From Kamptonema formosum PCC 10802 (lineage in GTDB: Bacteria; Cyanobacteriota; Cyanobacteriia; Cyanobacteriales; Oscillatoriaceae), in NCBI RefSeq assembly GCF_000332335.1, contig NZ_KB235949.1:610015-663597 (forward strand): DNA of 53,583 nt, read 5' to 3'. Below, piece after piece: positions 13,111 through 35,908 of this stretch. Below the pieces are notes generated by a model. That model saw only the letters and a program-made list of their open reading frames with translations, was not told where the DNA came from and ran no database searches. Every line of letters starts with the position of its first letter. The stretch's first letter is position 1. A program made the translations under genes and the position numbers.

Positions 13111-14664
13111 ATGACAGAAGAGATCCAGCTATCACTATTCCCACCGCGCACCGTTGCGGAGCTAGTGGAAGACATACAAATGTTAACTAAGGAAATCCAA
13201 GAGTTATACTGTCTGGACGATATTCCCTGGGCGATCGGATATAGTGGGGGGAAGGATTCAACGGCGGCTTTGCAGCTTGTTTGGAATGCGATTTCTGAAT
13301 TGCCACTCGAAAAACGAACCAAAACAATTTATGTAATTACAAATGATACACTCGTAGAGAATCCAATTGTTTCCGCTTGGGTGCGCAATTCTCTGGAACG
13401 GATGAAGGTTGCTTCCCAAGATCAAGGAATGCCCATCGAACCGCACCTTACTTATCCTGCAGTAAAAGACACGTTCTGGGTGTGCTTAATTGGGAAAGGC
13501 TATCCAGCACCTAGAAACCGCTTTAGGTGGTGTACAGAACGCCTAAAAATTAAACCTGCTGACTCTTTCATTCGTGACGTAATTAGAACTAACGGTGAAG
13601 TGATTCTTGTTTTGGGTACTCGCAAGGCTGAAAGTATTCAGCGGGCCAAAAATATGGCTAAACATAGAGAGTGGCGGCTCCGCGATCGCCTAAACACGAA
13701 TCCAAGCCGCCCTAACTCCCTGATTTACCTCCCGATTGAAGACTGGCGTACTGATGAAGTTTGGATTTACTTAAATCAGTGGCCTAACCCTTGGGGAAAC
13801 AGCAACAAAGACTTACTTACGATGTATCGGGGCGCTACTGCTGATAATGAATGCCCTCTAGTGATTGATACCTCGACTCCTAGCTGTGGCGATTCTCGCT
13901 TTGGTTGCTGGGTTTGCACAATGGTCAGTAAAGATAAATCTATGGAGGCAATGATTCAGAATGACGAGGACAAAGAATGGATGCAGCCTCTGCTGGATAT
14001 CCGCAATGAATTGGATATTGAGGACGATCGCGTCAAGAGAGACTTTCGCCGCATTTACGGTAAGGTCGAACTTTTTGAGCGCAATGTGGATGGTAAGATA
14101 TCCGTAGAACCGATGCCAGGGCCCTATACTAAAGAATGGCGGGAAACATGGCTGAGTAAGGTTCTCTCCGCTCAAACACAAATCCGCCGCACCGGCCCAG
14201 AAGAGATGCGGGACATCACGCTGATTACCCTGGAGGAACTTAGCGAAATTCGCCGCATCTGGCTGGAGGAAAAACACGAATTTGATGACAGCTTGCCCAA
14301 AATATACAAAGAAGTCACAGGCGAAGAGTTCCAAGATTCCCGCCCGGGTGCGGGCAGGAGTTTGCTGGGCAGCGATGAGTGGGAGGTGCTCGAAGAAATC
14401 TGCACCGGCGATGCCATGCACCAAGAACTGATGGCGAAACTGCTCAACACAGAACGCCAGTTTTACATGAAAGCTCGCCGCACCGGCATATACGATTCCT
14501 TGGAGAAGTGCTTTGAAACCAGCTCTCGCTCCAAGGAGGAAGCGATTAAGAACGCCCACTACAAGCGCGACTTGAAAACGGCTGCCGGTGAGGGCAACAT
14601 TGCCACGGTTAAACAGCTGACTTGGGCTAGTCTGAAATTCCAAAGCAACGATACTGCTGAGTAG
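13111..14664 (+). CDS. dndC: DndC, ATP-dependent sulfurtransferase of DNA phosphorothioation
   Basis: This is a 517-residue member of the PAPS reductase / ATP pyrophosphatase superfamily. The PP-loop is SGGKDS at 45-50. Four cysteines (Cys248, Cys259, Cys266, Cys269, the last three in CGDSRFGCWVC) fit the iron-sulfur cluster site known in DndC. It activates the DNA backbone with ATP and passes on sulfur received from a cysteine desulfurase. No dndA is present in the window, so a housekeeping IscS or NifS is presumed to serve. It has a strong ribosome site and is the first gene of the dndCDE transcript. Confidence 0.95.
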   Translation: MTEEIQLSLFPPRTVAELVEDIQMLTKEIQELYCLDDIPWAIGYSGGKDSTAALQLVWNAISELPLEKRTKTIYVITNDTLVENPIVSAWVRNSLERMKVASQDQGMPIEPHLTYPAVKDTFWVCLIGKGYPAPRNRFRWCTERLKIKPADSFIRDVIRTNGEVILVLGTRKAESIQRAKNMAKHREWRLRDRLNTNPSRPNSLIYLPIEDWRTDEVWIYLNQWPNPWGNSNKDLLTMYRGATADNECPLVIDTSTPSCGDSRFGCWVCTMVSKDKSMEAMIQNDEDKEWMQPLLDIRNELDIEDDRVKRDFRRIYGKVELFERNVDGKISVEPMPGPYTKEWRETWLSKVLSAQTQIRRTGPEEMRDITLITLEELSEIRRIWLEEKHEFDDSLPKIYKEVTGEEFQDSRPGAGRSLLGSDEWEVLEEICTGDAMHQELMAKLLNTERQFYMKARRTGIYDSLEKCFETSSRSKEEAIKNAHYKRDLKTAAGEGNIATVKQLTWASLKFQSNDTAE

Positions 14665-14734: not shown

Positions 14735-16717
14735 TTGATATTTCTCGAACTCGTACTGCAAAACTTTGGCCCCTATCTGGGGCGTCAAGTCATCAACCTC
14801 CGTCCGGAAAAGGATGGCAATCCGCGCCCGATTATCCTATTTGGCGGCATGAATGGTGGCGGGAAAACCACCCTGATGGATGCCATTCGCCTCGCTCTTT
14901 ACGGGCAGCGGGCCCAGTGTTCCACCCGTGGCAATTTGGGCTATAGTGAATTTCTCACGCAGTCGGTTAACAAGCACACGTCACCCGTTGAGGACACTCG
15001 CATTGAGCTGGTTGTTGAGCATATCGTGGAAGATCAATTGACTGAGTTAAGAATTGTCCGGTATTGGTATCCAAATCCGAAAGACGGCAAAGATACCTTG
15101 GGGATTCTGGAGGGTGACTGGCCGGTGACTCACCTGGTTAATACCTGGGATGAGTATATAGAAAATGTGCTGCCTCTGGGAATTTCTAATTTGTTCCTGT
15201 TTGATGGGGAGCAGGTGAAGGAACTGGCGGAACAGGATACGCCGCCTCCAGAAGTTGTTGAGGCGATTCAGTCGCTGCTGGGGCTGGAACTCGCGGAACG
15301 CCTCTCAAAGGATTTGGATATTCTCGTCAGCCGCAAGCGCAAGGCGCTCGCCAATACTAAGGATCTCGCCAGTTTGGATGAGATTGAAAAAAAGCTGTCT
15401 TCTCAGCAGGAGCAATATGAGGGAGCCAAAAAAGAGATAAAAACGCTGCAAAATGGTTTAGACCAAGCCCGCAAAAAGCTGCGGGAAGCTTCGGACAAGT
15501 TCAGGTTGGAGGGGGGCAAAATTGCGGCGGAACGCAAGCATCTAGAAAAACAAAAGGGTGATTTTGAGGCGGATGCCGCTCGCTCGCGTCAGGATCTGAT
15601 AGAATTAGCTTCTGGCAGTTTGCCGCTCGTTTTGATTGATCACCTGCTTTCGCAGGCGGAGGCGCAAGCTGAGAAAGAAATGAAACGGGAACAGGCTAAA
15701 ATGGCGCGAGATGTTTTGACGGAGCGTGACGCTCGCTTGCTGGAGCGCATCGGTGGGCTGGGGCTGACGCCGGAACAAGTGGAGAAAATTACCTGGTTGA
15801 TTGATGAGCAGAATCGAGAGCTGGAGCGTGAGATTGGCTGGGATGAAGACTCGTGGCTAGCTGCTGATGAGGAAACCAAAGATGCCCTCGCTAATCTGCT
15901 TCGCTACGAGCTGCCGCATCGGGTTAAGATGGCGCAAGAAAAGCAGGTTTATCTGGAAAAGAAGGAAGAGGAGATTATCTCTATCGAGAAACAGCTAGCA
16001 GGGGCGGCTTCTCCGGAGGTTTACGAACAGTTACAGGAGGCGGTTAACCGGGCGCAAGCTGACTTGGCGAGCAGTCAGGGAAGCTACGACGCGGGGAAGC
16101 GCCGGTGTGATGAATTAGAGGCGGCGATTGCCAAAACCAAAAAAGACCTGGAAGCGTACAGCGAGAAAAGTATTGAGCGCTTCAATGATGAGCATATCAT
16201 TGCGGCTTCGGCTAAAGTCCAAGAAACCCTCAAACTTTTCCGGGAGCGACTGACTCGCCGAAAACTGAATAAATTAGAGGTGGAAGTGACGGAGTGTTTC
16301 CGCTATCTCCTGCACAAGTCGGATTTAGTGCACCGGATTGCTATTGATATTAATACCTTTAGCCTTTCCCTGTACGATCCGCAGGGGCAACCCGTGCCCA
16401 AACACCGGCTTTCTGCGGGGGAGAAACAGCTGCTAGCGATTGCTTTTTTGTGGTCACTAGCTCGCGTGTCTGGGCGCAACTTGCCGGTGGCTATTGATAC
16501 CCCTTTGGGGCGCTTGGATTCTTCCCACCGGCAGAATCTGGTAGAGCGCTACTTCCCCGCAGCCAGCCATCAGGTGATACTGCTGTCTACCGATACGGAG
16601 ATTGGGGAAGCTGAAGTGGAACGGTTGCGGCTACAGGAGGCTATTGCGCGGGAATATCTGCTAAAATATCACTCAGCTAAGCGCCAGACAATCGTAGCAC
16701 CGGGGTATTTCTGGTAG
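14735..16717 (+). CDS. dndD: DndD, SMC-like ATPase of DNA phosphorothioation
   Basis: The protein has 660 residues and starts at TTG, preceded by GAGG eight bases upstream. An ATG at 14714 closes after three codons and cannot serve. Walker A is GGMNGGGKTT at 37-46. FLFDGEQVK follows, then coiled coil. The signature LSAGEKQLLAIAF is at about 558, and Walker B PVAIDTPLGRLD is near 584-595. There is no cysteine hook. DndD is the ATPase thought to provide nicking or structural alteration of DNA for sulfur insertion. It is separated from dndC by 70 bases and from dndE by 123. Confidence 0.95.
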   Translation: MIFLELVLQNFGPYLGRQVINLRPEKDGNPRPIILFGGMNGGGKTTLMDAIRLALYGQRAQCSTRGNLGYSEFLTQSVNKHTSPVEDTRIELVVEHIVEDQLTELRIVRYWYPNPKDGKDTLGILEGDWPVTHLVNTWDEYIENVLPLGISNLFLFDGEQVKELAEQDTPPPEVVEAIQSLLGLELAERLSKDLDILVSRKRKALANTKDLASLDEIEKKLSSQQEQYEGAKKEIKTLQNGLDQARKKLREASDKFRLEGGKIAAERKHLEKQKGDFEADAARSRQDLIELASGSLPLVLIDHLLSQAEAQAEKEMKREQAKMARDVLTERDARLLERIGGLGLTPEQVEKITWLIDEQNRELEREIGWDEDSWLAADEETKDALANLLRYELPHRVKMAQEKQVYLEKKEEEIISIEKQLAGAASPEVYEQLQEAVNRAQADLASSQGSYDAGKRRCDELEAAIAKTKKDLEAYSEKSIERFNDEHIIAASAKVQETLKLFRERLTRRKLNKLEVEVTECFRYLLHKSDLVHRIAIDINTFSLSLYDPQGQPVPKHRLSAGEKQLLAIAFLWSLARVSGRNLPVAIDTPLGRLDSSHRQNLVERYFPAASHQVILLSTDTEIGEAEVERLRLQEAIAREYLLKYHSAKRQTIVAPGYFW

Positions 16718-17912: not shown

Positions 17913-18183
17913 GTTGATTTGACATTTCGGCAAGTTTTCGCTGCTCTGGGAGGGCGGTTGCCCTCTCAGCTGCGTTTTTCTATGCTGCCGGCGGTGCTGG
18001 AACTGCTGCCGGTTAACTTTTCTTGCAGGAGCCGATCGCACCGGCCTGTTTTGGGTGTAAAATAGAATAGTGGGGTCACGCTCGCTCGCCTTCGAGCCCA
18101 CCGGCAAGTCAGAAGGTTGGGTAAATTTTGCAACCCCAAGCGATAACTGGGACATTACAGGCATATTTGAGGAGTTGCAGATC

Positions 18184-18450
18184 GTGAACATATCCCTAAC
18201 ACCAGAACAGGAACAGTTTATCCAAGCCAAACTGGAAACTGGCAAGTATGAGACAGCTGATCGGGTGATTGCTGAGGCATTTCGGCTGCTGGAAGAACGC
18301 GACCGGCACTATAAAAAGTGGGTTGAGGAAACGCGGAAAAAAATAGCAGTGCGAATTGAGCAAGCCGACAGGGTACAATTGACTGATGGTAAAGTTGTGA
18401 TTGCCAGACTCCGCGAGAAACTCCGCAAAGCGAGTGAGGAGCGAGCATGA
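18184..18450 (+). CDS. ParD-like antitoxin
   Basis: This is an 88-residue protein from a GTG at 18184. It has the ribbon-helix-helix antitoxin opening VNISLTPEQEQFIQAKLETG, followed by YETADRVIAEAFRLLEERD, as in ParD/CopG-type antitoxins of the ParDE family. It overlaps the toxin start by 4 bases (ATGA), the classical arrangement. The toxin is broken, so the antitoxin is either a free regulator or decaying. Confidence 0.8.
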   Translation: MNISLTPEQEQFIQAKLETGKYETADRVIAEAFRLLEERDRHYKKWVEETRKKIAVRIEQADRVQLTDGKVVIARLREKLRKASEERA

Positions 18451-18809
18451 GCATCATCATCTCACCGGAAGCCAGTCAGGACTTAGATGAGATTTCTAGC
18501 TATCTGTCCAACTTCAGCTTAGATGCCGCAACTCGGTTTGTGGATGCTGTTGCTCAAAAATGCGAAACTTTAGCAAAAGTTTGGTTTCAGAGGGGGGTGA
18601 GCGCCGTCTCACCTCCCTCCATTTTTAGGTGCCGGTGGGGAAGAATGTTTGTATATACAAAGTCCCTTCATAATGACGGCAACTTAAATCCCCGCTGCTT
18701 TGCCTCTTGCAAAATTTTGAAACCTTCGTTCGCCTGTCGTCGTGAAGGATTCTTCTTGTTAATAGCAAGCGTTCCCAGCTTGAAAGCTAGACTTTGCTGC
18801 CAGACTTGA
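18447..18809 (+). pseudogene. ParE-like toxin, truncated
   Basis: The first ~44 residues (opening MSIIISPEASQDLDEISSYL, continuing to CETLAK) are a good RelE/ParE N-terminus. After about nucleotide 18578 the similarity ends. The expected C-terminal strands (with the GLRG...YIIFYR-type segment) are absent and the frame runs antisense through the end of the AIPR gene. The break therefore lies close to the edge of the restriction operon, which suggests that the operon's arrival or a later deletion removed the toxin's 3' half. Confidence 0.7.
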
Positions 18810-20734
18810 AGGTTGCCGGTTTCCTTAGCCCACTGAGCAAGCTGGAACCACGTTTCAGCCGGCACCTCCTTAACTCGGGCAATGATTTGTAAATCTATGA
18901 GGTCGGGGCTGTCGATTCCTTTGTCAATGTGATGTGGCGCTGCTGTGCCGACTGGGATTAACTCTTTCAAAAAGGCGGCAGATAACTCGATATCAAACTC
19001 CTGAATAGTCTTCCAGCACTCCTCCTTCTTGCACCATTCGGTGACATTTCTGCCTTCAGGGGGATTTACAATTATCTGATGAACTTGCCTGGAAACAGCC
19101 GCAATGGCTTCCTGCAATGCCGGTGAAATCTCCTGCTGTTTCCAGATTGCATCCAAATCGACGCACTGCGCCGTTTTGTAGCTAAGATAGGCGAGCGTGT
19201 AGGTCACAATATTGGCCCGATAGCCCCCGAATTGCTGTGCTTGGACAACCTGTTCTGCCGACCTGAACAGGATAGCCTTGGCGACGAGCCGCTTAAAATA
19301 GGTTTCGTCAACTTCAAATCTTCCTCGTTTAGCCAGCCGAATTGTAAAATCGCGGAAGTTTTTCTGGGCACCCAGACTCACGATATGCGGTAACTGATTC
19401 CAAGTGTTCTCGAACTTGGCCAAATCGGTTTTAGTGAACTTCTGCGAGTTGGGATGCACCGCCTCAAAGGCTTTCTTCTTTGCTGGGGTTGGCTCGCGCC
19501 CCTTAGCATCCAGATATTGCCCCTGCGCTCGTTCGTAGAACCAGCGAGTCTGCCGCTGCGTTCCATCCACTGCCGGTGCCCATATAGTGCGAGAGAGTTG
19601 CTCAATTTTAATGTGAAAGGGGTGATTGGCGGAAAAATCGGCTTCACTCACCTTATTCTGGTTGTTAGCGTAGCGAGAGATCAGCGGGACAATTTCATTC
19701 ACCCGTTCCGGAACTACCACCGATAGCTTTGCTCCGACATAAATATTAGAGACATCTGCTTTATCCTTCCTGACTGCTTGATAAATCGATGCGGTGGTTT
19801 GCCCCCCATTAACAATTTGCAAGTCGCGCACCCACTTGATTCCCTTACCGCCTTCCGGCAAATCAGTTAACTCAACGGCTTCAGCCGTGGCAGAAATCCC
19901 GTTGTTATAGGCTAAGAAACGATGCGGTTCCTTGAGGATCGTTTGCCGGATTCCCTGGTTGACTTTCCCTCTCGCTTGCAGAAAGGAGCGCACGTTGCGT
20001 TCGAGCAGGCGCGAACCGTACTCGGCATAGAGTTGGTACAGTACATTACCGGGAATGATGGCCATATAGGCGCTGTAGTCTGAGTTAGATGCCGGCATCT
20101 CCAGACAGGGAATCGCTAAACCGTACTTAGCCTCAAAGTCGATTTCGATGGGTTCCCGCTGCTTCCCTGAACTCACACAGCGGTAAGTTCTTTCAATATC
20201 CCAGACGTGAAAGGAGCATGTTAAACCGTCTGCAGTTTCGTGAGGCTTCAGCTCAAGGGTCGTGCGACCATCTGTAAACAAATACAGCCGGACTTGACTC
20301 AGCTGCTGTCTCAGCTGGTGAATCCGAATCGCCATATCGAAGGCGCTGGACGCTTCCTCAAGTTCTTGGTGATATCCCTTGAGTGCCTTGTTTAAAAAAC
20401 TGGCGAGCCGGCTAAAAGCTGTTTCAACTTCTTGTTTTTTGATGGTAACAGGCGGAACGATCTGCGTATAAATCGACACAAACAGATTCAGGCAGTCCTC
20501 GTCTTGGTTGACGCTGTAGCCATTGACCTTAATGCCGCGAGTTCTGTGGTAGCATACCTCTCCGTCTTCCAGTTCCCCCGCCTCGGTGAGGTATTCCACC
20601 ATCAGGCGGGTGAATTCATCCTCCCGGAAGGAATCCCCCTCTCCACCTTCTGCGTCACTTCCGCCATTACAGCTGATAATCACCTCTTGTCTGAGGTTTT
20701 CCGCAAACTGGATTAATCCTGTTTCATCACTCAT
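18668..20734 (-). CDS. AIPR-family protein
   Basis: This is a full-length protein of about 688 residues from the ATG at 20734. It shows AIPR segments such as RFLAYNNGISATAEAVEL and LQIVNGGQTTASIYQAV, followed by SRYANNQNKVSEADF. AIPR proteins (named for abortive infection phage resistance) occur in restriction operons with a cytosine methylase, MutL-type ATPase, Z1 helicase and a PD-(D/E)XK protein. It is the last gene of such an operon here and overlaps the preceding remnant by 8 bases. Its frame is intact although three upstream partners are broken. Confidence 0.85.
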   Translation of the reverse strand: MSDETGLIQFAENLRQEVIISCNGGSDAEGGEGDSFREDEFTRLMVEYLTEAGELEDGEVCYHRTRGIKVNGYSVNQDEDCLNLFVSIYTQIVPPVTIKKQEVETAFSRLASFLNKALKGYHQELEEASSAFDMAIRIHQLRQQLSQVRLYLFTDGRTTLELKPHETADGLTCSFHVWDIERTYRCVSSGKQREPIEIDFEAKYGLAIPCLEMPASNSDYSAYMAIIPGNVLYQLYAEYGSRLLERNVRSFLQARGKVNQGIRQTILKEPHRFLAYNNGISATAEAVELTDLPEGGKGIKWVRDLQIVNGGQTTASIYQAVRKDKADVSNIYVGAKLSVVVPERVNEIVPLISRYANNQNKVSEADFSANHPFHIKIEQLSRTIWAPAVDGTQRQTRWFYERAQGQYLDAKGREPTPAKKKAFEAVHPNSQKFTKTDLAKFENTWNQLPHIVSLGAQKNFRDFTIRLAKRGRFEVDETYFKRLVAKAILFRSAEQVVQAQQFGGYRANIVTYTLAYLSYKTAQCVDLDAIWKQQEISPALQEAIAAVSRQVHQIIVNPPEGRNVTEWCKKEECWKTIQEFDIELSAAFLKELIPVGTAAPHHIDKGIDSPDLIDLQIIARVKEVPAETWFQLAQWAKETGNLQVWQQSLAFKLGTLAINKKNPSRRQANEGFKILQEAKQRGFKLPSL

Positions 20735-21135
20735 TGCCGCACCCAATCACAGACACAACCTCGGATTCCGGTAAGGAAAAACGCCGGCACTCAGCGACAC
20801 TGATGGTGTATCGCACATCGCCGACTCCATTGCGCAAGTCCGCTTCGACAATTCGGGGAAAATCCCCCTCGACTTTGAAGTAGTTGACCTCTCGTTGGGT
20901 GTAGCCAATTTGTTCGTAGCGCGAGGCGTGTGTGTCCAGATAGCCGACTTCAAAGAGAAGTGTTTCCAGTTCTTCCTTGGCTAGCGGATCGTTTTCGACT
21001 AGCGACCTTACACTGGCAACTATTTCTGGCAAAGACTCACCGCGCCCTTGCCCCGCATCGAGAGACAAGTGCAGCAGGATAAGCTGACCAATGCCGGTAT
21101 CATCCAGCTGCCGTTCGCTGGAAATACTGTGAGTC
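20727..21135 (-). pseudogene. PD-(D/E)XK-motif protein (DUF4420-like), C-terminal fragment
   Basis: The remaining ~135 residues (from SISSERQLDD to the end) resemble the C-terminal half of the DUF4420 restriction-associated protein, with HASRYEQIGYTQREVNYF and VEADLRNGVGDVRYTISV. The N-terminal part with the nuclease-fold core is missing. Its upstream neighbour is directly the N-terminal part of a Z1 helicase, so one deletion removed the 3' part of one gene and the 5' part of the next. It still overlaps the AIPR start by 8 bases, as in an intact operon. Confidence 0.7.
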
Positions 21136-21375
21136 AAATCCGAGAAAACCCTCATCTAAACGCAACTGCGTCTGGCTCCGCAGACTGTTTTGCATACCAG
21201 CCAGAACGATAATCAGTTTGTATCCAGCATCAACTGCCTTGCAGATCAGACCAGTATAGTTTGCTGTCTTTCCAGACTGAACCTGTCCCACAACCATTCC
21301 TCTTCGATCCCAAGCACCTGCACGTTGGGGATCTTCCAAGCGTTCGAGAATCTCGTCTGTGAGCTGATCGAGACT
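21120..21375 (-). pseudogene. Z1-domain helicase, internal fragment
   Basis: On the minus strand, codons from SINSLDQLTDEILERLEDP through GMVVGQVQSGKTANYTGL (a Walker A motif VQSGKTANY) to RLDEGFLGFD match the N-terminal region of Z1-type helicases. The normal protein is several hundred residues longer. Here the frame stops after about 85 residues, at the junction with the DUF4420 remnant. A frameshift or deletion at about 21375 separates it from the upstream ATPase remnant. It cannot be functional as a helicase. Confidence 0.7.
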
Positions 21376-21905
21376 ATTGATGCTGGTCGGTGCCCTGCTT
21401 AACCTTCCTAATCCAAGGAAAGACGTAATTTTCAGAGGACTGTCTGGCGATCGCCTTTCCCCGGTGCCGATATATGTCTGCCGCTTTCTGCCTGGTCAGC
21501 CGTGCGATGCGCTTGAGGTCTTCCCTCAGAGATGAAGGGGGACGCGCCCTAGACTTCTTGACATCGATATTCCAGTCACTGTCCATTGAATTCGGCAGGT
21601 CTACCTGAATGCGAGCCAGCTTGTAATGCTCTTCTTTCTGAAGCGGATCTCCAAGAATCTGTGGAACACCATAGCTAGGTGTTTCTCCACATCTTCAATA
21701 AGTTCGAGAAAGCGGTTATGAGCCTTCCGGTCGTCTGTTTTTGTCCCGCCGGCGACCCGATCCACACACTCCCACAGCACCACCGTCCCGCTTTTCATAT
21801 TGTCCAAATCTGCCAGCCGATCTTGCGAACTAGAAGCAGCGGTGTGCAGCAGTCGCCATTCCCCTCAGTCTGCTTGCCGACCATGATTGCTATCCTGTAA
21901 CATCA
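21374..21905 (-). pseudogene. MutL/MORC-type ATPase, deleted remnant
   Basis: Two fragments are readable on the minus strand. The first (about 21870-21680) reads EWRLLHTAASSSQDRLADL, then GTVVLWECVDRV and VEKHLAMVFHRFL. The second (about 21665-21375), in another frame, reads GDPLQKEEHYKLARIQVDLP, then DSDWNIDVKKSRARPP and ADIYRHRGKAI. These are middle and C-terminal parts of the histidine-kinase-type ATPase found in MORC-class restriction operons. The N-terminal ATP-binding domain is gone, an in-frame TGA precedes the first fragment near 21866, and sequence between the fragments is missing. Confidence 0.65.
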
Positions 21906-21965
21906 CAGGCAGACCAGCCTTTTTTTCTAACTCTACATACTAGAATAAGCTGAGTTGAACACTTT

Positions 21966-23180
21966 CTAGTTAGCCTCACGGTAAGCCTGTACTTCTTTAA
22001 CAATCGGTCTGGCGATCGCTTCAGCCAAGAGAGGCGGCACAGAATTCCCAACCAACTCAAACATTCTTGTCATAGGTGCGTCAAAGACAAAATGATCGGG
22101 GAAGCTCTGAAGTCTAGCCGCCTCTCGCACAGAAATGCTCCGAGTCTGCTTTGGATGAATGTAAGCCAGACAATCTTTCTGCATGTGCGCGGTTAATGTC
22201 CAAGCTGGCCTGTCCCAGGGTAAACGCTTGTACTTGTCATCAAAAATATCCCACCGATACCGCCTCATAAATTCAGGCAAATCCGTATATTTACCCCCGG
22301 GCGAGAGCATGGCGAAACAAATCATATCAACTGGGTTGTGAGACCGGCATATATGATTCATTACGCCATCCGGCTCTGGCCGTATGCTTATTTCCCGCCT
22401 CATTTCTTTTTGGTAGCTAGACTGGGGAGGACAAAGATAAGGCTGTTTCATGTCTGTCTGTTTCGGGCCACTACTTTTTTCGCTCAGACGTATGTACGGA
22501 GGTGTGAGCGGTATCAGATCGCTAATGGCCTCACCCACGGAAATAGGTTTTTTTGTCAGAGGCTGGGGGAACTCAAATTTTATATCCAAATCTAGGCGCA
22601 CGCCAACGATAAATAGACGTTTTCTAATTTGAGGGACGCCATAATCGGAAGCAGTTAATATTCGATGGTAAATCCTGTAGCCAGGATAGTTCTCTCGATT
22701 CCGTGGCAGTCCGAATTCAAGACTGCTGAGTACCTGAGAAAATATCTGCTTCTTTTTCGTTAAACTGTCAACGTTTTCCATCACAAAAAACAGGGGGCGA
22801 TAGTGGCCTAAAAAGCTCACAAAGTTTTGGTACAGGAAGTTCCTCTTGTCCTCTTCAATTATCCTGCCCAAAGACCTGATTTTACCCACGCCCACCAGGG
22901 AAAATACTTGGCAGGGAGGCCCGCCAATCACGATGTCAACTTCACCCGGTTTAACAGGGAGCTTCTGGATGTCAATAGAAGTAATATCCTGCGCTACTAG
23001 CCTCATCCTGCAGTTAGTAAAATTTTTATGATGAGTTCTAACTGCGTGGGGGTTGCTATCAATCCCTCCTAAAATTTCGCAGCCAGCATTCTGAAAGCCC
23101 AAACTCATCCCACCGGCTCCGCAGAATAAATCGAGGACGGTAGGGTGATAGATTTTTTCCTGACTGGATTCGTTGCCCAT
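21966..23180 (-). CDS. DNA (cytosine-5-)-methyltransferase
   Basis: The protein has 404 residues with the full m5C methylase set. Motif I is VLDLFCGAGGMSLGF (15-29). Motif IV is GGPPCQVFS with the catalytic Cys90. Motif VI is ENV at 135-137, and motif VIII is QIRKR at 184-188. The C-terminal REAARLQSFPD and VGNSVPPLLAEAI form motifs IX-X. The target recognition region lies at about 225-310. It heads the decayed restriction operon and has a strong promoter at 23249-23277. With its partner genes broken it now acts as a solitary methylase. Confidence 0.95.
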   Translation of the reverse strand: MGNESSQEKIYHPTVLDLFCGAGGMSLGFQNAGCEILGGIDSNPHAVRTHHKNFTNCRMRLVAQDITSIDIQKLPVKPGEVDIVIGGPPCQVFSLVGVGKIRSLGRIIEEDKRNFLYQNFVSFLGHYRPLFFVMENVDSLTKKKQIFSQVLSSLEFGLPRNRENYPGYRIYHRILTASDYGVPQIRKRLFIVGVRLDLDIKFEFPQPLTKKPISVGEAISDLIPLTPPYIRLSEKSSGPKQTDMKQPYLCPPQSSYQKEMRREISIRPEPDGVMNHICRSHNPVDMICFAMLSPGGKYTDLPEFMRRYRWDIFDDKYKRLPWDRPAWTLTAHMQKDCLAYIHPKQTRSISVREAARLQSFPDHFVFDAPMTRMFELVGNSVPPLLAEAIARPIVKEVQAYREAN

Positions 23181-23248
23181 TAAGATCCGCTACTTGGTTG
23201 CGATAGAGATGAGATTCGCCAAAACTTATCTTGAATTGGCAGATAACA

Positions 23249-23277
23249 ATTATCTCTCCTGTCGCACCCTTTGTCAA
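23249..23277 (-). promoter_or_regulatory. Strong promoter with palindrome for the cytosine methylase
   Basis: On the minus strand a perfect TTGACA (23277-23272) and GATAAT (23254-23249) are 17 bases apart, about 69 bases before the ATG. The -10 box overlaps the palindrome GATAACAATTATC (23242-23254), a candidate operator for autoregulation. Confidence 0.65.
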
Positions 23278-23512
23278 TACCTTGCAAAGAAATGCAACTC
23301 GTTGAGGAGTACCCCTCTCAGGTTAACAGCCAACTCTAACCTATCATCGGGCCGGCGTCAGCAGCCACATACCGCCAGAGCGCTCACTTCTATTATTCCA
23401 TCCACACCGGCAACAGCATACCGCTCACATCCGAAATATTTGGCTCGCCCCGGTACAGCCCACCCACTCCCCAACCAATCCCGCGAGATTTTCAGCCTGG
23501 GGGAGCACTTTT

Positions 23513-26509
23513 ATGGTATGCAATAATCTGTCCCTCTGTTTGCGCCTACCCCGTCAAACGACTATGGCTGCTCCCACTCCTCTGCCCCCAGAAAGCCCTC
23601 CCCCCTCTCGCCCCGTGCTACTCGCCCAGGAAGCCAGCATCCTCAACCAAGATACCACCTTCCTCGACTGCTCTGGCGACAGGGACACCCCCCGCACCCA
23701 GGCAGATATTGTCAACCTCAGCTACACCCTCAACTCCATCAAATCCCCAGATGAGCGCCGCAACACCTTGCAGCACGCTTGGGCGCTGGCACGCCAAGTC
23801 TTAATCGTTGCCGAAAAAGTTCTCATAGATGACAGAGAAACCGGCAAACTTGTCTGTGCAGAAGGCACTTTCACTCCTTGCGCAGCCGGCGAGAAATATT
23901 TCCAGCACCGGCAGCTAAAAACCTACACCGAAAAAGTCCTGCAAACTGACGCCGTACCGGCAGGATTGGGCGTCTATTTCGTATTCCGAGACTCCAGCCT
24001 AGCCGAAACCTTTCGCATCTCCCGCTTACGCTCCCCCATCCCCATCCCGGCAGCCAGAAACGGCATCCAGCAATTTGAAGAAAACCGCCAACTTCTCGCC
24101 CCCTTAATGGCATTTTTCAGCGAGCGCGGGCGTCTCCCCATCGCGGGCGAACTCCCCCAAGAACCGGAACTGATTGCCAAATTCGGCACCCTGAAAGACG
24201 CCTTCCAACTCATCTCGCAAGCCACCGGCTCCCAACAGTGGGATGCCATTACCGACAAACGCCGGCAAGATATCCTCGTCTACCTTGCCAGCACGCGCCG
24301 CCCGATAGAAACCCTGCCCTCTCAAATCCAAAACGACATCAGCGCCCTGTTCGACAGCCCCCAGCAAGCCGGTGAAATTGTGGGGGAAATGCTCAATAGT
24401 TTGAGCGACACTAATATAATAACCTCCTGCTGCCAAAACAGCCCCACCGGCAAAAAACTTCCCGGTGCCCTCTACGTCCATATTTCTGCCCTCCCAGCAC
24501 TCAACCCCTTGCTGAGGATCTACGAAGGATTCGCCAGCGCCAGCACGGGACGCATTGACGGTGCGAACGTCGTTAAATTCAGCACCGACAAACCAAAAAT
24601 ATCTTATCTATTCTACCCCGACTTCGACACAAACCCCCATCCCGTATTGCAGGCTAGCCTACAAATTGACCTCCCGGATCTGCGGATCGCCTATCGCGAC
24701 TACAGCGCCTCCGACAATCCGCCGGTGCTGCACCGCAAAGATGCCTTTGTCACCCCCGACTACCCGCACTACGAAACATTTGCCCAACTCACCCGCCAAG
24801 AAGAAGCCTTGGGGCTTTTAGATCCCGCCCGCGCCATTGGAACTCGTCAGGTTTGGCTGCGATGCTTGCAAGACGACGGGTTAGAAATACAGGAACATCG
24901 CGTTGTTCGCCGGCTTGAAGGCGTGCCGGTGGAAGCTGGAGACGCGCCCGATGGCTCAACAAATTCTTTGGTGCCCCAAATAGAGCGCCACAAAGCCGCC
25001 ATTGTCCGCAGCGAACTTTCTCGCCCCGTGCGCCTCTCCCTGGAAGCCGGTCTTTTTAGCGAAAATACCACATTTTTTGACTACGGTTGCGGGTACGGCG
25101 GAGATGTTGAGCGCATCGCGCAGCAAGGATACAGCGCTGCCGGCTGGGACCCCTACTATTTCCCCAACAATTCCCGCACCCCCGCTGATATTGTCAATAT
25201 AGGCTACGTCATCAATGTCATCGAAATCCAGTCAGAGCGCAGGGAAGCCCTCATCCAAGCGTGGGAGCTCACCGGCAGAGTTTTGCTCGTCGCCGCCCAA
25301 GTTATTATCAATGATGAAAACAGCGGACAAATTGCCTACGGTGACGGCGTAATTACCCGCCGCAACACCTTCCAGAAATATTTCGACCAGGAAGAGCTGA
25401 AAATCTACATCGACCGAATTCTAGGCACTGACGCAATTCCAGCGGCACTGGGGATTTATTTTGTCTTCCGCGACAGTGCGGAAGCCGAAATATTCCGGAT
25501 GTCGCGCTTCCGCTCCCGCGCCATTACGCCCCGAGTGCGAATCCCCAGCAAGCGCTTTGAAGATTATCAGGAATTGCTGCAACCGCTGATGGCTTTTGTT
25601 ACCGAGCGCGGAAGGCTGCCTGTTAAAGGCGAACTTGCCGGTGAGGCGGAATTGCTGGCGGAATTTGGCTATTTTCGCCGCGCTTTTCAGACGATTTTAC
25701 AAGTCACTGACCCCCAAGAGTGGGAAGCGATCGCAGACCGCCGCCGGCAAGACACCTTGGTGTATCTCGCCCTCAAACAAATCAGTCTGGGCGAAGACCG
25801 GTCGCTCGCCTATCCCGGATACCACGCCCCCGAAATCCAAAACGACATCAAAGGACTTTTCGGCACCTACCAAGAAGCGTGTGACACCGCTACCGCACTG
25901 CTCCACAGCACCGGCATTCTCAGCATAATCGCTAAAATTTGTCAGAACAGCAAAATCGGTCAGCAACTCCCCAACGCCCTCTGCGTTCACGTTTCCGCCC
26001 TGCAAGAACTCCACGCCATCCTGAGGATTTACGAAGGCGTGGTTTGCAGCACAATTGGGCGCATGGATGAAGCCACTCTGGTTAAATTTCACACCGACGC
26101 GCTGAAAATCTCCTACCTATTTTATCCCGACTTCGACACAGACGCCCATCCAGCCTTGCACACCAGCATGCAGATAGATTTGAAACACCGGCGCGTCACT
26201 TACCGGGATTGCGACACCTCCGACAATCCGCCGGTACTGCACCGCAAAGACGCTTGCGTCACTCCCGACTACCCGCTTTACAAGACCTTCGCCCAACTCA
26301 CCCGCCAGGAAGAAAACTGGGGGCTTCTCGATGATTTGAGTGCCATTCGCACGCGCAAGGGGTGGCTGAAATGTTTGCAAGAACACTGCGCGGAAATTCG
26401 CAACCATAAGGTTTATTGGCGCAAAGATGCTGACCCCTACCGCGTTAAATATTTGCTTTCGGCTAGGAAGGCGCGTCGGAAAAACAGGGAAGCGGGAGAG
26501 AGCAATTAG
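23513..26509 (+). CDS. Dnd-associated putative methyltransferase, tandem duplication with a dead N-terminal copy
   Basis: The 998-residue protein has two homologous halves. The C-terminal half (about 495-998) has a class I methyltransferase start, TFFDYGCGYGGDVERIAQQG, at ~520-539, followed by the acidic AGWDPYYFP strand. It then has a long region ending with NPPVLHRKDACVTPDYP. It matches the family I recall as DNA phosphorothioation-associated putative methyltransferase. The N-terminal half (about 35-490) is collinear (NPPVLHRKDAFVTPDYP at its end). However, between TFLD at ~49-52 and RTQADIVN at ~61-68 it lacks some 25 residues, including the glycine-rich SAM loop. GGGGGAG eight bases upstream supports the ATG at 23513. 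Confidence 0.85.
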   Translation: MVCNNLSLCLRLPRQTTMAAPTPLPPESPPPSRPVLLAQEASILNQDTTFLDCSGDRDTPRTQADIVNLSYTLNSIKSPDERRNTLQHAWALARQVLIVAEKVLIDDRETGKLVCAEGTFTPCAAGEKYFQHRQLKTYTEKVLQTDAVPAGLGVYFVFRDSSLAETFRISRLRSPIPIPAARNGIQQFEENRQLLAPLMAFFSERGRLPIAGELPQEPELIAKFGTLKDAFQLISQATGSQQWDAITDKRRQDILVYLASTRRPIETLPSQIQNDISALFDSPQQAGEIVGEMLNSLSDTNIITSCCQNSPTGKKLPGALYVHISALPALNPLLRIYEGFASASTGRIDGANVVKFSTDKPKISYLFYPDFDTNPHPVLQASLQIDLPDLRIAYRDYSASDNPPVLHRKDAFVTPDYPHYETFAQLTRQEEALGLLDPARAIGTRQVWLRCLQDDGLEIQEHRVVRRLEGVPVEAGDAPDGSTNSLVPQIERHKAAIVRSELSRPVRLSLEAGLFSENTTFFDYGCGYGGDVERIAQQGYSAAGWDPYYFPNNSRTPADIVNIGYVINVIEIQSERREALIQAWELTGRVLLVAAQVIINDENSGQIAYGDGVITRRNTFQKYFDQEELKIYIDRILGTDAIPAALGIYFVFRDSAEAEIFRMSRFRSRAITPRVRIPSKRFEDYQELLQPLMAFVTERGRLPVKGELAGEAELLAEFGYFRRAFQTILQVTDPQEWEAIADRRRQDTLVYLALKQISLGEDRSLAYPGYHAPEIQNDIKGLFGTYQEACDTATALLHSTGILSIIAKICQNSKIGQQLPNALCVHVSALQELHAILRIYEGVVCSTIGRMDEATLVKFHTDALKISYLFYPDFDTDAHPALHTSMQIDLKHRRVTYRDCDTSDNPPVLHRKDACVTPDYPLYKTFAQLTRQEENWGLLDDLSAIRTRKGWLKCLQEHCAEIRNHKVYWRKDADPYRVKYLLSARKARRKNREAGESN

Positions 26510-31141: not shown

Positions 31142-34100
31142 ATGCTGCCATCAATTTTTAAGACTTGCGCTCCTAGAGAGTCAATCCAACTAGGAGAAAT
31201 CTCGGAGGAAATCTTTGCAGCCAAACTGCGGTTTGTTGTCAAAGGCAGCGCCCCCCGCGTTTATGGGGAGGCCAATACTTTTTTTGCCAATACTTTCCCG
31301 ACTGAGGGTCTAAAAACTCTGATTCGCGAAGTGTTCGGACGCCTGTGCGGGGCTTCTGCCGGCTCGCCGGTTATTCGCCTGGAAACTAGCTTTGGGGGCG
31401 GAAAAACTCACGATAAAATCGCCCTCTGGCACATCTGCAAGCAGGGACGGAAAATTGAGGAGTTGGAACAGTTTGCTGATTTGAGTTTAATTCCCGACCG
31501 GCCCATTCAGGTCGCCGCTATTGACGGGCGCGATTTAGACCCGGAAAATGGGGTCTACCATCCCGAAACCGGCATCACCACTCACACGCTTTGGGGCGAA
31601 ATTGCCTACCAGATAGGCGGGATTGAGGGCTACCAGCTGTTGCGCGGCTCCGATGAGAAGGGGATCAGTCCGGGCACGCCGGTGCTGGAGCGGCTGGCAG
31701 GGGGAAAACCCACTCTAATTATTTTAGATGAAATCGCCCGCCACTTGCGAGCGGCTAAAGCGAAAAAGATTGCTGAGAGCACCCTATCCGAACAGGTTGT
31801 GGCTTTCCTGTTCTCGCTGATGGATTTGGCGGCGGCTAGCAATAATTTGGTGTTTGTCTACTCCCTCGCCACAAGGTCGGATACCTTCGGGGAAGAGACA
31901 GCGGATCTCAACGAGCTAGTTAGCGCTTCCGCACGGCAAGAGCGCATTTTGAATCCCAGCACGGATGTGGAAATCTACAATATCGTCAAGCAGCGGATGT
32001 TTGTTAGTGTCAGCGAAAAAGCTGCTGCAGAGGCGGCGAAGGAGTATTTAAACACCTACCGTTCCAGCCGGATTAATTTGCCGGATGGCTGCAAGGATGC
32101 TAGCTATGCGGCGGCGATTTCTGCCAGTTACCCTTTCCATCCAGAACTGTTTAACCTGCTCACAAAAAAGATTGCCTCAATTCCTGATTTTCAGCGAACT
32201 CGGGGGGCGCTGCGGCTGTTCGCCCTAGTGGTGCGCTACCTCTGGCAAAATCCCTCTGACTGGGTGCCGGCAATTCACACGCATCACATTCCAGTGGGGC
32301 TGGATAATAAGGTGACTGATGATTTAACTTCTCGCCTGAAGCGCTCGCTGATGCGCTTGCCGGTGCAAGCGGATATCTACAACCCAGATGGCAGGAAAGC
32401 TTACGCTCAGGTGCAAGATGAGGAATGGCTGGCTGCCGGTAAACCCCCTTTCTCTACCTGGGTGGCGCGGACTATTTTCCTGCACTCCCTGACTCAGGGA
32501 ATTTCATCGGGAATCCGGCGGGCTGAGTTGAATTTATCCCTGCTGACGCCGGGATTGGAAATTGGTTTTGTTGACCGCGCCCTTCAGCAGCTGGGTTCTG
32601 TCGCCTGGTATTTGGACGAAGACCCGGTGACTTCGATTTGCCGGTTCAGGGAAGAACCTTCTCTGAATAAAATTATAGCAGAAGAAAAGGATCTTGTGGG
32701 CATAAGTGAGGCGAAAGCGGATTTGAGGAGTCGCCGGGACAGCATTTTTGCCAGCAAGTTTTTTACCCTCGTCCCCGCACCGGAAACGGCTTCTGATGTG
32801 GGGGATAGCGCTGAGGATGTGGCCCTGTGCGTCATTGATTTTGATGAGGAAACCGTGTCGGCTTCGACGGATGGCCCAACGCCTTTAGTGGAGCGGATTT
32901 TCAATAGCACCGGCGATTCGGGGAAGTTCCGCATTTTCCGCAACCGGCTGCTGTTTTTGCTGGCGAATAAGCTAGAATTGCAGCGGGCGATTGCCAACGC
33001 CCGCGAGTATAAGGCGATTCAGAATATCCTCAGGAGTCCCAACCGGCTCGCCGATTTGTCGGAAAGCCAGCAGAAGCAATTGCGGCAAAAAGAAGGGGAG
33101 ATGGATTTGGCGGTGCGCGTGTCTTTAACCAATGCCTACCGGCACCTTTTCTATCCCGCTAGCGATCCGGTGAAAGCGCCCAAGGGCTTGATGCACTATG
33201 TCTTGCCGGCAGAAGATTGCAGCACTGTCAAGGGGAAGAATAACCAGCAGGAGGTGATTTTGAAGGCGCTCAAGGAGTGCCAGAAAATTCGCCTGGAAGG
33301 GGATAAACCTTACGCACCGGCTTACATTTTGCAAAAGGTGTGGCCGGCGGGGCTGGACTCCTGGACATCGAAGGCGCTGCGAGAAGCTTTTGCCAAGGAT
33401 TTGAGCTTGCATATCCTGCTGGATGCGGAAGTGGCAAAACTGCGGGATACTGTCCGCGAGGGGTTGCTCAGCGGGCACTGGGATATGAAAGCCGGCGAGC
33501 GCTTTTTTGTCAAGACGGATAGCAGCAACCCCAGCCTGCCAGAAACCATTGAATTCTCCGATCGTATGGTACTATATCGCCGGGGAATTTTGCAACCGCC
33601 GGCACCGAAAGAGGTTGAATTGAGCGCTCAGGTGATGCCGAGTGCGGAACCGGCTAAGCCGGTGCGCGTCAGGTGGAAAGCAAAAGGAGCGCTGACTGTC
33701 ACGCTTTATCAGGATGGGGTGGCGGTTCCCGGTTTATTTCGCCCTTCTGATGAGTGGGAGGGGAGTGTGGGGAAAACCACTTCTTTTCGCGTGGTGGCTG
33801 ACTGGGGAAATGGCGAGACGGCGGCGAAAGAAACCCAGGTGGTGCTGGGTGCCGGTGCGCCCAACACTCTCCTTTATCCAACGGGTGGCGCTGGCATCTG
33901 TTCAGCTGCCGGTGAGCAGTTGAGCCTCTTCCAGGTTAAACCCGAAACCTTTGAGTTGGAGGGCAGTATTAACAGTGCTTTTACGGCTCTGAGCGACCGC
34001 TGTGCTGACAGTAAGGTTAAGGGTATTGTAGCATTAGAGCTATCAGTCGGGCAAGTGGTGGACTACCGCAAACTCGGCACAGCTTTGCCGCTTCTGAACC

Positions 34101-34378
34101 GGTTCACTCTGCTGGTTGACCAGACGATAACGGTTCAGTCCGGCGAGCAATTTGTGCGCTTGGAATACCAGGGCGGAATACGGGGATTCCAGAGTTTCTT
34201 TCCCCCCGTCAATGCTTTGCTCAACACCCCAGATGCGCAAGCGAATGTGAATTTGAAACTCACTTTTGAGTTTCAACCGGCAGTCTTGCCAGAAGGCGCG
34301 GAGATGAGCACAATTAAACAGGCGCTCAACCGCAATCCGGTAGACCGGCTTTCTTTGAGCGCTCGGGTTACTTATTAG
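31142..34378 (+). CDS. DUF499-type large AAA ATPase
   Basis: The protein has 1078 residues and a good ribosome site (AGGAG, 6 bases before ATG). It has the DUF499 opening with a modified P-loop, ETSFGGGKTH at 81-90. A Walker B, LIILDEIARHLRAAKAKK, lies near 193-210. A sensor-like region VYSLATRSDTFGE follows, and the C-terminal part is beta-rich (about 810-1078). DUF499 ATPases occur in defence clusters with DUF1156 methylases and SNF2 helicases. It leads such a cluster here (31.1-43.7 kb). The ATPase assignment is sound; its mechanism is unknown. Confidence 0.85.
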   Translation: MLPSIFKTCAPRESIQLGEISEEIFAAKLRFVVKGSAPRVYGEANTFFANTFPTEGLKTLIREVFGRLCGASAGSPVIRLETSFGGGKTHDKIALWHICKQGRKIEELEQFADLSLIPDRPIQVAAIDGRDLDPENGVYHPETGITTHTLWGEIAYQIGGIEGYQLLRGSDEKGISPGTPVLERLAGGKPTLIILDEIARHLRAAKAKKIAESTLSEQVVAFLFSLMDLAAASNNLVFVYSLATRSDTFGEETADLNELVSASARQERILNPSTDVEIYNIVKQRMFVSVSEKAAAEAAKEYLNTYRSSRINLPDGCKDASYAAAISASYPFHPELFNLLTKKIASIPDFQRTRGALRLFALVVRYLWQNPSDWVPAIHTHHIPVGLDNKVTDDLTSRLKRSLMRLPVQADIYNPDGRKAYAQVQDEEWLAAGKPPFSTWVARTIFLHSLTQGISSGIRRAELNLSLLTPGLEIGFVDRALQQLGSVAWYLDEDPVTSICRFREEPSLNKIIAEEKDLVGISEAKADLRSRRDSIFASKFFTLVPAPETASDVGDSAEDVALCVIDFDEETVSASTDGPTPLVERIFNSTGDSGKFRIFRNRLLFLLANKLELQRAIANAREYKAIQNILRSPNRLADLSESQQKQLRQKEGEMDLAVRVSLTNAYRHLFYPASDPVKAPKGLMHYVLPAEDCSTVKGKNNQQEVILKALKECQKIRLEGDKPYAPAYILQKVWPAGLDSWTSKALREAFAKDLSLHILLDAEVAKLRDTVREGLLSGHWDMKAGERFFVKTDSSNPSLPETIEFSDRMVLYRRGILQPPAPKEVELSAQVMPSAEPAKPVRVRWKAKGALTVTLYQDGVAVPGLFRPSDEWEGSVGKTTSFRVVADWGNGETAAKETQVVLGAGAPNTLLYPTGGAGICSAAGEQLSLFQVKPETFELEGSINSAFTALSDRCADSKVKGIVALELSVGQVVDYRKLGTALPLLNRFTLLVDQTITVQSGEQFVRLEYQGGIRGFQSFFPPVNALLNTPDAQANVNLKLTFEFQPAVLPEGAEMSTIKQALNRNPVDRLSLSARVTY

Positions 34379-34569
34379 ATTGGAGAACCCGGCACCCCAA
34401 CCCCCTCCCCGCTTGCGGGGAGGGGGAGCTAGAAAGTAGGTCGGTTTACTGCGCTCCAAATGAAGAAACCCGGTTTCTTTAAGAAACCGGGTTTCTAGCC
34501 CCTCGGGTTTCTAGCCCCTCAGAACCGCTATATCCCATCCGGTAACGAGAAAAATAATGTCCAGGAATT
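34379..34569. repeat. Hairpin and AAACCGGGTTTCT repeat in the DUF499 downstream gap
   Basis: CCCCTCCCCGCTTGCGGGGAGGGG forms a long stem at about 34404-34427. The palindrome GAAACCCGGTTTCTTTAAG and its partner lie at 34463-34496, followed by GTTTCTAGCCCCTC repeated. No gene is seen. Confidence 0.65.
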
Positions 34570-34998
34570 ATGCAAGAATTTCAACTGCGGGTAGTGGCTA
34601 CGGATAACAACAATTTTGCCCTGGAACTGTACCAGTGCGCCTACAAAAAAGCGGGGGAGAAGAAGCGCCCAGCAGCTAAGCGGATTGGCCGGCTCAAAGG
34701 GGAGGCTCTGGTGCGGGCGCGACAGGCCATTTATGCGGCATTAAAAGCGAATAACTATGACCCCAAAACCCTGACAAACAAGCGGCAAACTCCCTACGTT
34801 CTTTCTGAGGACTCCGGCGTGAATCTGGCGCTGCTGTTCCAGGCGTTGCAGCGGCTCTCCAAACCTGATAAAATTGCTAATATCACTGCTGGAGTGATGG
34901 CCATGAGCGATGAGGAGGCCCACTACTGGTTTGCCAAGATTGCCGGCGGCAAACGCTCTGCGGCGCTCAAGGCAATGCGGATACTACTGGGAGAGTGA
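34570..34998 (+). CDS. Small DUF499-associated protein (142 aa)
   Basis: The protein opens MQEFQLRVVATDNNNFALEL with a strand-rich start, a basic stretch (KKAGEKKRPAAKRIGRLKG), then a helical C-terminal half ending KRSAALKAMRILLGE. I recall small proteins of this type next to DUF499 genes (possibly the DUF7680 group) but cannot confirm this. The basic segment and genetic position suggest a DNA-binding or adaptor subunit. It is followed after 4 bases by the Uma2 gene. Confidence 0.6.
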   Translation: MQEFQLRVVATDNNNFALELYQCAYKKAGEKKRPAAKRIGRLKGEALVRARQAIYAALKANNYDPKTLTNKRQTPYVLSEDSGVNLALLFQALQRLSKPDKIANITAGVMAMSDEEAHYWFAKIAGGKRSAALKAMRILLGE

Positions 34999-35002
34999 AA
35001 CT

Positions 35003-35665
35003 ATGGTACAATCTGAGTTCGGGCTGCGCCTTCCAACTAGCGCTGAACTTCCTTGTTCGGATGACAGACCTGTGGACAACGAAAATCAAAATTTTATTCC
35101 GAATTTCCTGTTATTCCTGCTGGAATTTATTTGGGGCAATCGCCAAGACTGGTTCTTTGGCGTCGATATGGCGCTCTATCACACCACGGGAGTCAACCCC
35201 CTTGTTCCTGTTGTTCCCGATGGGTTTTTGAGCTTGGGAGTTGAGCGCCGCAAGGGCAGGGGTTCCCGCTTAAGTTACGTCGTCTGGGAGGAAAATGGAA
35301 CTGTCCCGATTCTTGCCCTGGAAGTCGTCTCTCGCACGCCGGGGGGAGAGTACGACGAGAAAATGGAAATTTATGCCCGGTTGGGGGTACTCTATTATAT
35401 AGTGTACAGCCCCGACTACTGGCAGCGTGACCGGCACCAGCCTTTTGAAGTGTATCGCCTGGTTGATGGCAGTTACCGGCAGCAAATTGGCGAGCCTTTC
35501 TGGATGCCAGAAATCGGCTTGGGGATCGGGCGCACCCGCACCCAAACCGGCGGATTGGAGCGGGAGGTGCTTTCCTGGTACAATCAGCAAGGAGTCAGGT
35601 ATTTGACTCCGGAAGAACTGCTAGATCGCTATCGCCAGCGCTTTGGCGAATTGCCTGAAGATTAA
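35003..35665 (+). CDS. Uma2-family (DUF820) putative nuclease
   Basis: The protein has 220 residues from the ATG at 35003, 4 bases after the preceding stop. Uma2 features are VVPDGFLSLGVERRKGRG, PILALEVVSRTPGGEYDEK (acidic catalytic region) and ILYYIVYSPDY-like strand spacing. This is the large subtype that ends with a coiled TPEELLDRYRQRFGEL tail. It lacks a proven function. Close spacing suggests co-transcription with the DUF499 cluster, but cyanobacteria carry many Uma2 genes, so linkage may be incidental. Confidence 0.85.
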   Translation: MVQSEFGLRLPTSAELPCSDDRPVDNENQNFIPNFLLFLLEFIWGNRQDWFFGVDMALYHTTGVNPLVPVVPDGFLSLGVERRKGRGSRLSYVVWEENGTVPILALEVVSRTPGGEYDEKMEIYARLGVLYYIVYSPDYWQRDRHQPFEVYRLVDGSYRQQIGEPFWMPEIGLGIGRTRTQTGGLEREVLSWYNQQGVRYLTPEELLDRYRQRFGELPED

Positions 35666-35702
35666 TCTCTCGTTACCAGGCAGTAGGGGCAGCCCCCTGC
35701 TG

Positions 35703-35908
35703 CATTAGTGTCAACTTAAGCTCCCGGCGATTGAAATCGCGGCTATACAAACGAAGTCCGCCTTCGCGGACTTAAGAGAAGAGCTAAAATATTAAAACCC
35801 TTGCCTTGCGGGTTTTGTCTGTATAGCTGCGGTTACCCTGCGGGAAGCCGCCAAGGGCGTCTACAACCGCCCAGAGACTACGGGACACAGCTTAAGTTGA
35901 CACCGATG
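35703..35908 (+). mobile_element. Complete MITE-like element (forward orientation)
   Basis: This 206 bp element has termini CATTAGTGTCAACTTAAGCT (35703-35722) and, inverted, AGCTTAAGTTGACACCGATG (35889-35908). Inside it has a hairpin AAGTCCGCCTTCGCGGACTT and the GGTTTTGTCTGTATAGCTGC block. It is flanked by an exact 10-base direct repeat CCCCCTGCTG (35693-35702 and 35909-35918), a candidate target-site duplication. There is no coding content. With the reverse copy at 39691 it brackets the DUF1156 methylase. Confidence 0.75.

Follow-up and report, generated by a model that had tools for sequence, protein, structure and literature searches.

The window analysed here, a stretch of 53,583 nucleotides from the cyanobacterium Kamptonema formosum PCC 10802 (NZ_KB235949.1, positions 610,015 to 663,597), contains downstream of dndC and dndD a gene of the family TIGR04096 (dnd_rel_methyl, DNA phosphorothioation-associated putative methyltransferase). 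The encoded protein has two homologous halves, and only the C-terminal one carries the binding motif for S-adenosylmethionine (SAM). Why, then, is the N-terminal half kept? A first-pass annotation of the DNA proposed a fusion of a pseudoenzyme and an enzyme. We suggest that the protein arose by duplication and fusion, probably long ago, and that its halves have divided between them two conserved sites of a one-copy protein: the N half would have taken the site of what we call the LHRK domain and the C half the methyltransferase site. We consider this reading moderately probable. The LHRK domain is the C-terminal domain of about 165 amino acids in each half; the name is coined here from its PPxLHRK motif. 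The gene is laid out as follows (patch 1 is defined further below).

23513..26509, forward strand: fused tandem TIGR04096 protein of 998 amino acids plus stop, an open reading frame without internal stop
23606..24415 (amino acids 32-301), forward strand: first methyltransferase domain, a pseudo-methyltransferase in which motif I, the following helix, the acidic strand and RxTFQ are absent
23666..23704 (amino acids 52-64), forward strand: site of a 23-residue in-frame loss
24416..24910 (amino acids 302-466), forward strand: first LHRK domain, ten of ten patch-1 positions kept (D counted as E)
24965..25924 (amino acids 485-804), forward strand: second methyltransferase domain, predicted to be live
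25079..25105 (amino acids 523-531), forward strand: SAM motif I, DYGCGYGGD
25142..25159 (amino acids 544-549), forward strand: acidic strand, GWDPYY
25361..25378 (amino acids 617-622), forward strand: second conserved methyltransferase motif, RNTFQK, absent in 15 of 15 first-half domains tested
25925..26419 (amino acids 805-969), forward strand: second LHRK domain, four of ten patch-1 positions replaced (Q817, C824, C915, R946)

The coordinates and motifs given by the first-pass annotation hold when the reading frame and its translation are read again; the start codon, judged by eye, is uncertain (M1 or M18). The NCBIfam profile TIGR04096 matches the protein in two stretches with 1112 bits in total (cut-off 150), the best stretch being amino acids 489-970 on profile positions 1-478. 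Alone, the N half scores 455 bits and covers profile positions 63-477 only, and the C-half stretch scores 662 bits in its own genome. By score the whole protein and both parts belong to the family; the N half is a TIGR04096 homologue but, with SAM motif I absent, not a working methyltransferase unit. The homology of the halves, annotated over about 450 residues, extends in BLASTP over 474 positions, of which 233 are identical (49%, E = 2e-148). Between "TTF" and "ADIVN" we count 13 residues in the N half and 36 in the C half, so that the annotated loss of about 25 residues over motif I amounts to 23 residues, in frame, covering motif I together with the helix that follows and the acidic strand. 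A single GxGxG is found in the protein, at 525, which bears out that only the C half keeps the SAM motif, and RxTFQ likewise occurs once, at 617, the N half being without it. In sequence, the SAM-binding and RxTFQ signatures are found in the C half only, and the full patch-1 set in the N half only.

Structure prediction, suggested earlier as a check on the SAM pocket of the first half, agrees. In the model the C half folds into a full class I core, with strand 1 (520-523), helix A (530-537) and strand 2 (541-545). In the N half a strand at 50-52 is followed by one at 64-70; strand 1 runs directly into strand 4, and helix A and strand 2 are absent. The prediction is thus an intact class I methyltransferase core in the C half and, in the N half, a core short of these two elements. 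The placement of the halves relative to each other is a low-confidence prediction (predicted template modelling score, pTM, 0.51). Fold searches returned class I methyltransferases in their top rows, with weak E values: the full protein had two rows below 0.001, the N half none. Pfam Rsm22 gave a below-cut-off match to the methyltransferase, and mt-SAF1/RSM22 was found in the PDB at E = 0.005. The catalytic motifs of amino or C5 DNA methyltransferases are [DNS]PP[YFW], PC[QN] or ENV. None of these signatures is found in the 998 amino acids of the window protein, and methylation of DNA bases should therefore not be assumed.

The loss of motif I recurs in tandem relatives. O. princeps RMCB-10, of the same genus as the window, carries the same in-frame loss (L033; L144 of G104 aligns identically). 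A third genome of the genus, G136, yielded the C-terminal part of the gene alone and hence gives no information on the N half. The first half is without motif I in 17 of the 18 cyanobacterial genomes with a full tandem that were read (G000, G104, G115, G079, G143, G113, G169, G182, G221, G130, G155, G047, G037, G060, G192, G211, G005 and G008; in G192 and G211 the gene is incomplete, at a contig end or the end of the examined stretch). These genomes are a sample and no census, taken from among the best-listed matches of 388 genomes together with 22 hand-picked genomes; one set of homologues consists of the best 80 of 156 and is likewise no census of architectures. The 18 genomes fall in 8 genus groups, as labelled by the tool, 7 of which show the loss. 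Only the first half of G115 keeps motif I (DYGGGQGGD), and it, too, is without RxTFQ. Among 15 non-redundant tandems motif I is present in one first half and in all second halves, RxTFQ in no first half and in all second halves. Some first halves are shorter still, with 217-255 residues ahead of the LHRK domain (L154, L169, L178).

Two findings had been named in advance as fatal to the annotation: single-copy homologues that also lack motif I, and a sequencing error. Single-copy proteins, however, have motif I in 44 of 45 and RxTFQ in 43 of 45 cases. That a sequencing or assembly error deleted motif I has a negligible probability and is refuted by other assemblies, as the loss recurs in O. princeps and, in the same position, in the first halves of proteins from other genera.

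What is common to the first halves becomes apparent from the architectures of the family. The non-redundant cyanobacterial proteins fetched comprise 45 single, 60 LHRK-first and 15 full tandem proteins (from 176 records, 2 fragments were dropped and 128 were left without near-copies, that is, >97% in the last LHRK domain). LHRK-first proteins have an extra LHRK copy in front, with fewer than 180 residues before the first LHRK domain, a cut-off of our own. Their second copies have motif I in 60/60 and RxTFQ in 53/60. A protein of Synechocystis PCC 6803, MYO_RS16685 on pSYSM, with 690 amino acids, is also of this form. Thus in 60 of the 75 duplicated proteins the first methyltransferase domain is little or absent and the LHRK domain is kept. 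It is therefore the LHRK domain, and not the pseudoenzyme fold, that is constant in the first half. Six proteobacterial plasmid proteins are also ordered LHRK, methyltransferase, LHRK. Because first copies group together in trees, the LHRK-first form may be interpreted as derived from a tandem by loss of the first methyltransferase domain. As a separate observation, four members (L156, L161 and L162 from proteobacterial plasmids and L199 from a viral contig) are longer, with 850-918 amino acids, and have by eye a common extra C-terminal region of about 180 amino acids that shorter members are without.

The LHRK site itself is unequally kept. Of the LHRK-first proteins, 58/60 carry PPxLHRK in the first domain and 19/60 in the second; it is confined to the first domain in 39 and to the second in none. 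The proteobacterial proteins have it in 6/6 first and 0/6 second domains. Patch 1 is our name for ten columns, picked from the 60 LHRK-first proteins, whose residues persist in first copies and are lost from second ones; in the first LHRK domain of the window these are K314, L316, P317, Y321, S382, R408, D410, F412, G443 and T444. Outside the set used for the choice, patch 1 is kept at 0.99 in N vs 0.42 in C copies of full tandems (which are kin of the choice set) and at 0.68 in first vs 0.07 in second copies of proteobacteria; proteins with one LHRK domain keep 0.87. K13 is present in 15/15 N copies, 0/15 C copies and 43/45 singles, G142 in 15/15, 0/14 and 43/45, respectively. Of five test residues, C copies with an N partner have lost two to five in 75/75 cases, and all five are kept in 42/45 singles. 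A converse patch (9 of 13 listed columns, with E/D and I/V/L counted as equal) is kept in LHRK-first proteins at 0.97 in second and 0.27 in first copies, in singles at 0.97, and in proteobacteria at 0.51 in second and 0.23 in first copies.

We note, however, that several observations speak against so clean a division. In full tandems PPxLHRK is retained in 12/15 second domains besides 15/15 first domains, and the converse patch is weak there (0.78 C, 0.51 N). In the window protein the converse patch is barely divided (7/9 C vs 6/9 N). In its C half K, Y, F and G of patch 1 are gone, yet 6/10 residues and PPVLHRKD remain, and for this reason the C-half LHRK site may not be dead. As far as the sequence tells, the split of the sites in the window protein itself is partial. 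Furthermore, overall conservation is alike in both copies, the mean majority share being 0.68 N and 0.72 C in LHRK-first proteins (p = 0.15) and 0.77 N and 0.76 C in tandems (p = 0.53). Second LHRK domains thus seem to do something too, and their conservation indicates that they have changed duty rather than decayed. The order of events may also be reversed: the LHRK-first form could be the older one, with the dead domain gained later. Finally, the sequences are kin and the tree holds just 2-4 independent contrasts, too few for a test, so that the loss of patch 1 in second copies is to be taken as a pattern and not as a test.

The first-pass annotation also held the rest of the N half to be well conserved and under selection, and proposed to compare the halves by the ratio of nonsynonymous to synonymous change. 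Between the window and O. princeps the N half is constrained, with pN/pS 0.41 (p = 1.9e-4) compared with 0.24 (p = 2.6e-8) for the C half. By domain, pN/pS is 0.61 for the methyltransferase remnant (51-301; p = 0.14, constraint not significant), 0.21 for the first LHRK domain (302-466; p = 7.6e-5), 0.21 for the second methyltransferase (p = 1.6e-8) and 0.39 for the second LHRK domain (p = 0.15). In genus g56 (7 genomes, 21 pairs) the four domains give these ranges of the ratio omega: methyltransferase remnant 0.135-0.283, first LHRK domain 0.058-0.168, second methyltransferase 0.025-0.080, second LHRK domain 0.031-0.123. Highest of the four in 18/21 pairs, the remnant exceeds the C methyltransferase in 21/21, and is still constrained. 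These ratios indicate purifying selection on the first LHRK domain. The claim of selection stands for the half as a whole, that of good conservation only in part: the methyltransferase remnant is the least constrained domain of the first half.

These data bear on the other explanations of the N half. The dead methyltransferase domain itself might activate, stabilise or position the live one, as a regulatory or scaffolding pseudoenzyme. Sequence and model do support a dead plus a live methyltransferase in one chain, and to this extent the proposed fusion is sustained. The regulatory part, however, is possible but less likely, and we would give it a clear minority of our belief: constraint on the remnant is not significant in the window's genus (in the one pair available), in g56 it is more relaxed than the live domain in every pair, most duplicated proteins have little or nothing of this domain, and the placement of the halves is not confidently predicted. 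Alternatively, the N half could be a decaying duplicate without own function, heading for loss. The missing motif I and RxTFQ, the still shorter first halves and the gene copies with internal stops or in pieces in G332, G196 and G063 would fit, but the constraint on the first LHRK domain in both genera and the near-complete retention of patch 1 in N copies make decay improbable. Equally we regard it as quite improbable that the N half is an enzyme of a different kind, with an altered pocket that still takes up SAM or another nucleotide. In the window and in g56 strand 1 is indeed still followed by "CSGD" or "YGGD"; these leftover letters vary, however, between genera, and the models are without helix A and strand 2.

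How old is the duplication? In trees of LHRK domains the first copy of the window groups with first copies of other genera, and in one of these trees a branch separates 35 N copies plus outgroup from 50 C copies and singles with support 99/98 (87 of 197 rows, hand-picked). Before one LHRK tree duplicates (L001, L002, L113, L114, L142, L033) and truncated or broken rows (L081, L092, L075, L076) were dropped, and also, without good reason, the LHRK-first L013 and L032. In a half-length tree all 30 N copies lie on one side (Shimodaira-Hasegawa-like approximate likelihood ratio test, SH-aLRT, 98). This tree was made by a quick method from 75 rows, leaves out the near-copy tandems L147, L150, L151, L153 and L189, and includes first copies of LHRK-first proteins that fill about a third of the columns. 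A tree from the methyltransferase domains alone is poorly resolved. A recent duplication within the window's genus is disfavoured, as in the best trees the N half of the window groups with N copies of other genera. By approximately unbiased (AU) tests, a topology in which the N and C halves of the window and of O. princeps form a clade of their own is not rejected (p = 0.10; on the half-length tree p = 0.40), and the former set is also compatible with a single clade of all tandem N copies (p = 0.37) and with a tree that has every N copy on one side (p = 0.56). Because a younger duplication is left unrejected, an old shared origin is favoured, not proven. In the half-length tree G115 branches first among N copies, with weak deeper nodes; this fits a single later loss of motif I in first halves.

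For the division of sites between the halves we suggest the following mode of action. A working unit would need one methyltransferase site and one LHRK site acting together. The LHRK site of the N half could hold or prepare the substrate, which would most likely be a nucleic acid or a Dnd-pathway protein; methyl transfer would then fall to the C half. The dead Rossmann remnant might mainly link and position the LHRK domain; most relatives do without it. As to known domains, Pfam gave no match to the first LHRK domain of the window and just two chance-level matches to 10 LHRK members, a PDB sequence search with the LHRK set reached at best E = 0.11, the viral fold library returned nothing useful and PADLOC left the window protein unmatched.

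The LHRK domain also exists separately in viruses. An uncultured phage record of 485 kb encodes a 190-amino-acid protein that is an LHRK domain only (L195:3947-4519; TIGR04096 profile 321-476, 85 bits, E = 4e-24, below the cut-off of 150). A class I methyltransferase frame lies 0.4 kb past this gene (L195:4961-5638) and is weakly family-like (E = 0.03 with TIGR04096, 0.002 with our own profile). On a 60-kb viral contig a 172-amino-acid open frame has only the LHRK domain. Nine viral contigs, the same phage among them, comprise two with LHRK alone, two LHRK-first, two single and three partial or unclear forms. On one viral contig a 794-amino-acid frame (L200:3287-5668) combines, by eye, an HNH nuclease-like stretch with an LHRK domain and a partial methyltransferase. 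One could speculate that the LHRK domain is a second catalytic site, and the whole a two-enzyme machine that performs methyl transfer and, at the K-Y-S-HRK-G site, another step, both on one Dnd-linked substrate; in bacteria the two chemistries would have been shared out between the duplicated halves, in some viruses between separate genes. We think this rather unlikely.

Fusions of dead and live methyltransferases are already known. In RsmC, which methylates 16S rRNA, the dead domain comes first. RsmC-type bacterial rRNA m2G methyltransferases are described as an inactivated and a catalytic domain fused in one chain (PMC1282579), and in this they resemble the window protein. They belong, however, to another family; in the window protein each half has an LHRK domain and the second site is divided, and an rRNA target is not implied. 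A dead methyltransferase homologue also works with a live one in the TbPRMT1 enzyme-prozyme pair, whose prozyme is without a critical Rossmann helix, in DNMT3L and in Gcd10/Gcd14 (PMC10211241, PMC1282579). In contrast, these are eukaryotic and made of separate chains, and the passages of the two sources available to us describe no second site shared out between the partners. The TIGR04096 model shares with our protein the above-cut-off scores and the link with dnd genes. It describes, however, one methyltransferase plus LHRK unit of 478 positions and takes no account of the duplication in tandem, of an additional LHRK domain at the N-terminus or of a missing motif I.

The gene was annotated as Dnd-associated, and locally this is correct given its neighbours:

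11751-12932: DndB-like
13111..14664, forward strand: dndC
14735..16717, forward strand: dndD

TIGR04096 is matched in 348 of 388 genomes of the order, in 339 above cut-off. Among 120 genomes of the order 93 have TIGR04096 and dndC, 11 TIGR04096 only, 4 dndC only and 12 neither (Fisher p = 1.6e-7, kinship not corrected for; 3 weak TIGR04096 and 4 sub-cut-off dndC matches scored as absent). In O. princeps the gene order is dndC, dndD, a DUF1499 gene and the TIGR04096 tandem gene. An extra 5.4 kb in the window (17983-23427; ParD/ParE, an AIPR protein, a DUF4420 fragment and a C5 methylase) parts the dnd genes from the methyltransferase gene; it is absent in O. princeps, where about 150 bp lie between the flanks. 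According to the available part of PMC8569181, dnd originated in cyanobacteria, and the phosphorothioate restriction systems (dndFGH) are absent from them. The window encodes a Dnd-type restriction enzyme of TIGR04095 (3518-4915) and a second DndD-like protein (5565-7637); in light of the stated absence of dndFGH this enzyme may deserve a look. Three large proteins at 31142-43678 resemble DUF499, DUF1156 and phospholipase D-like/SNF2 anti-phage proteins, all below curated cut-offs, and are perhaps another defence system adjoining the dnd cluster.

TIGR04096 goes with dndC across the cyanobacterial order, yet it is scarcely named in the literature: in the text accessible to our search the exact family name occurs in one paper only, in a gene table, and the accession in none. 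Even before any experiment, the tandem forms tell the residues that go along with the methyltransferase from those that belong to a second, separable site. This narrows the residues worth testing to a short list, offers the second domain in a stand-alone viral form, and corrects the idea that selection mainly keeps the dead methyltransferase fold.
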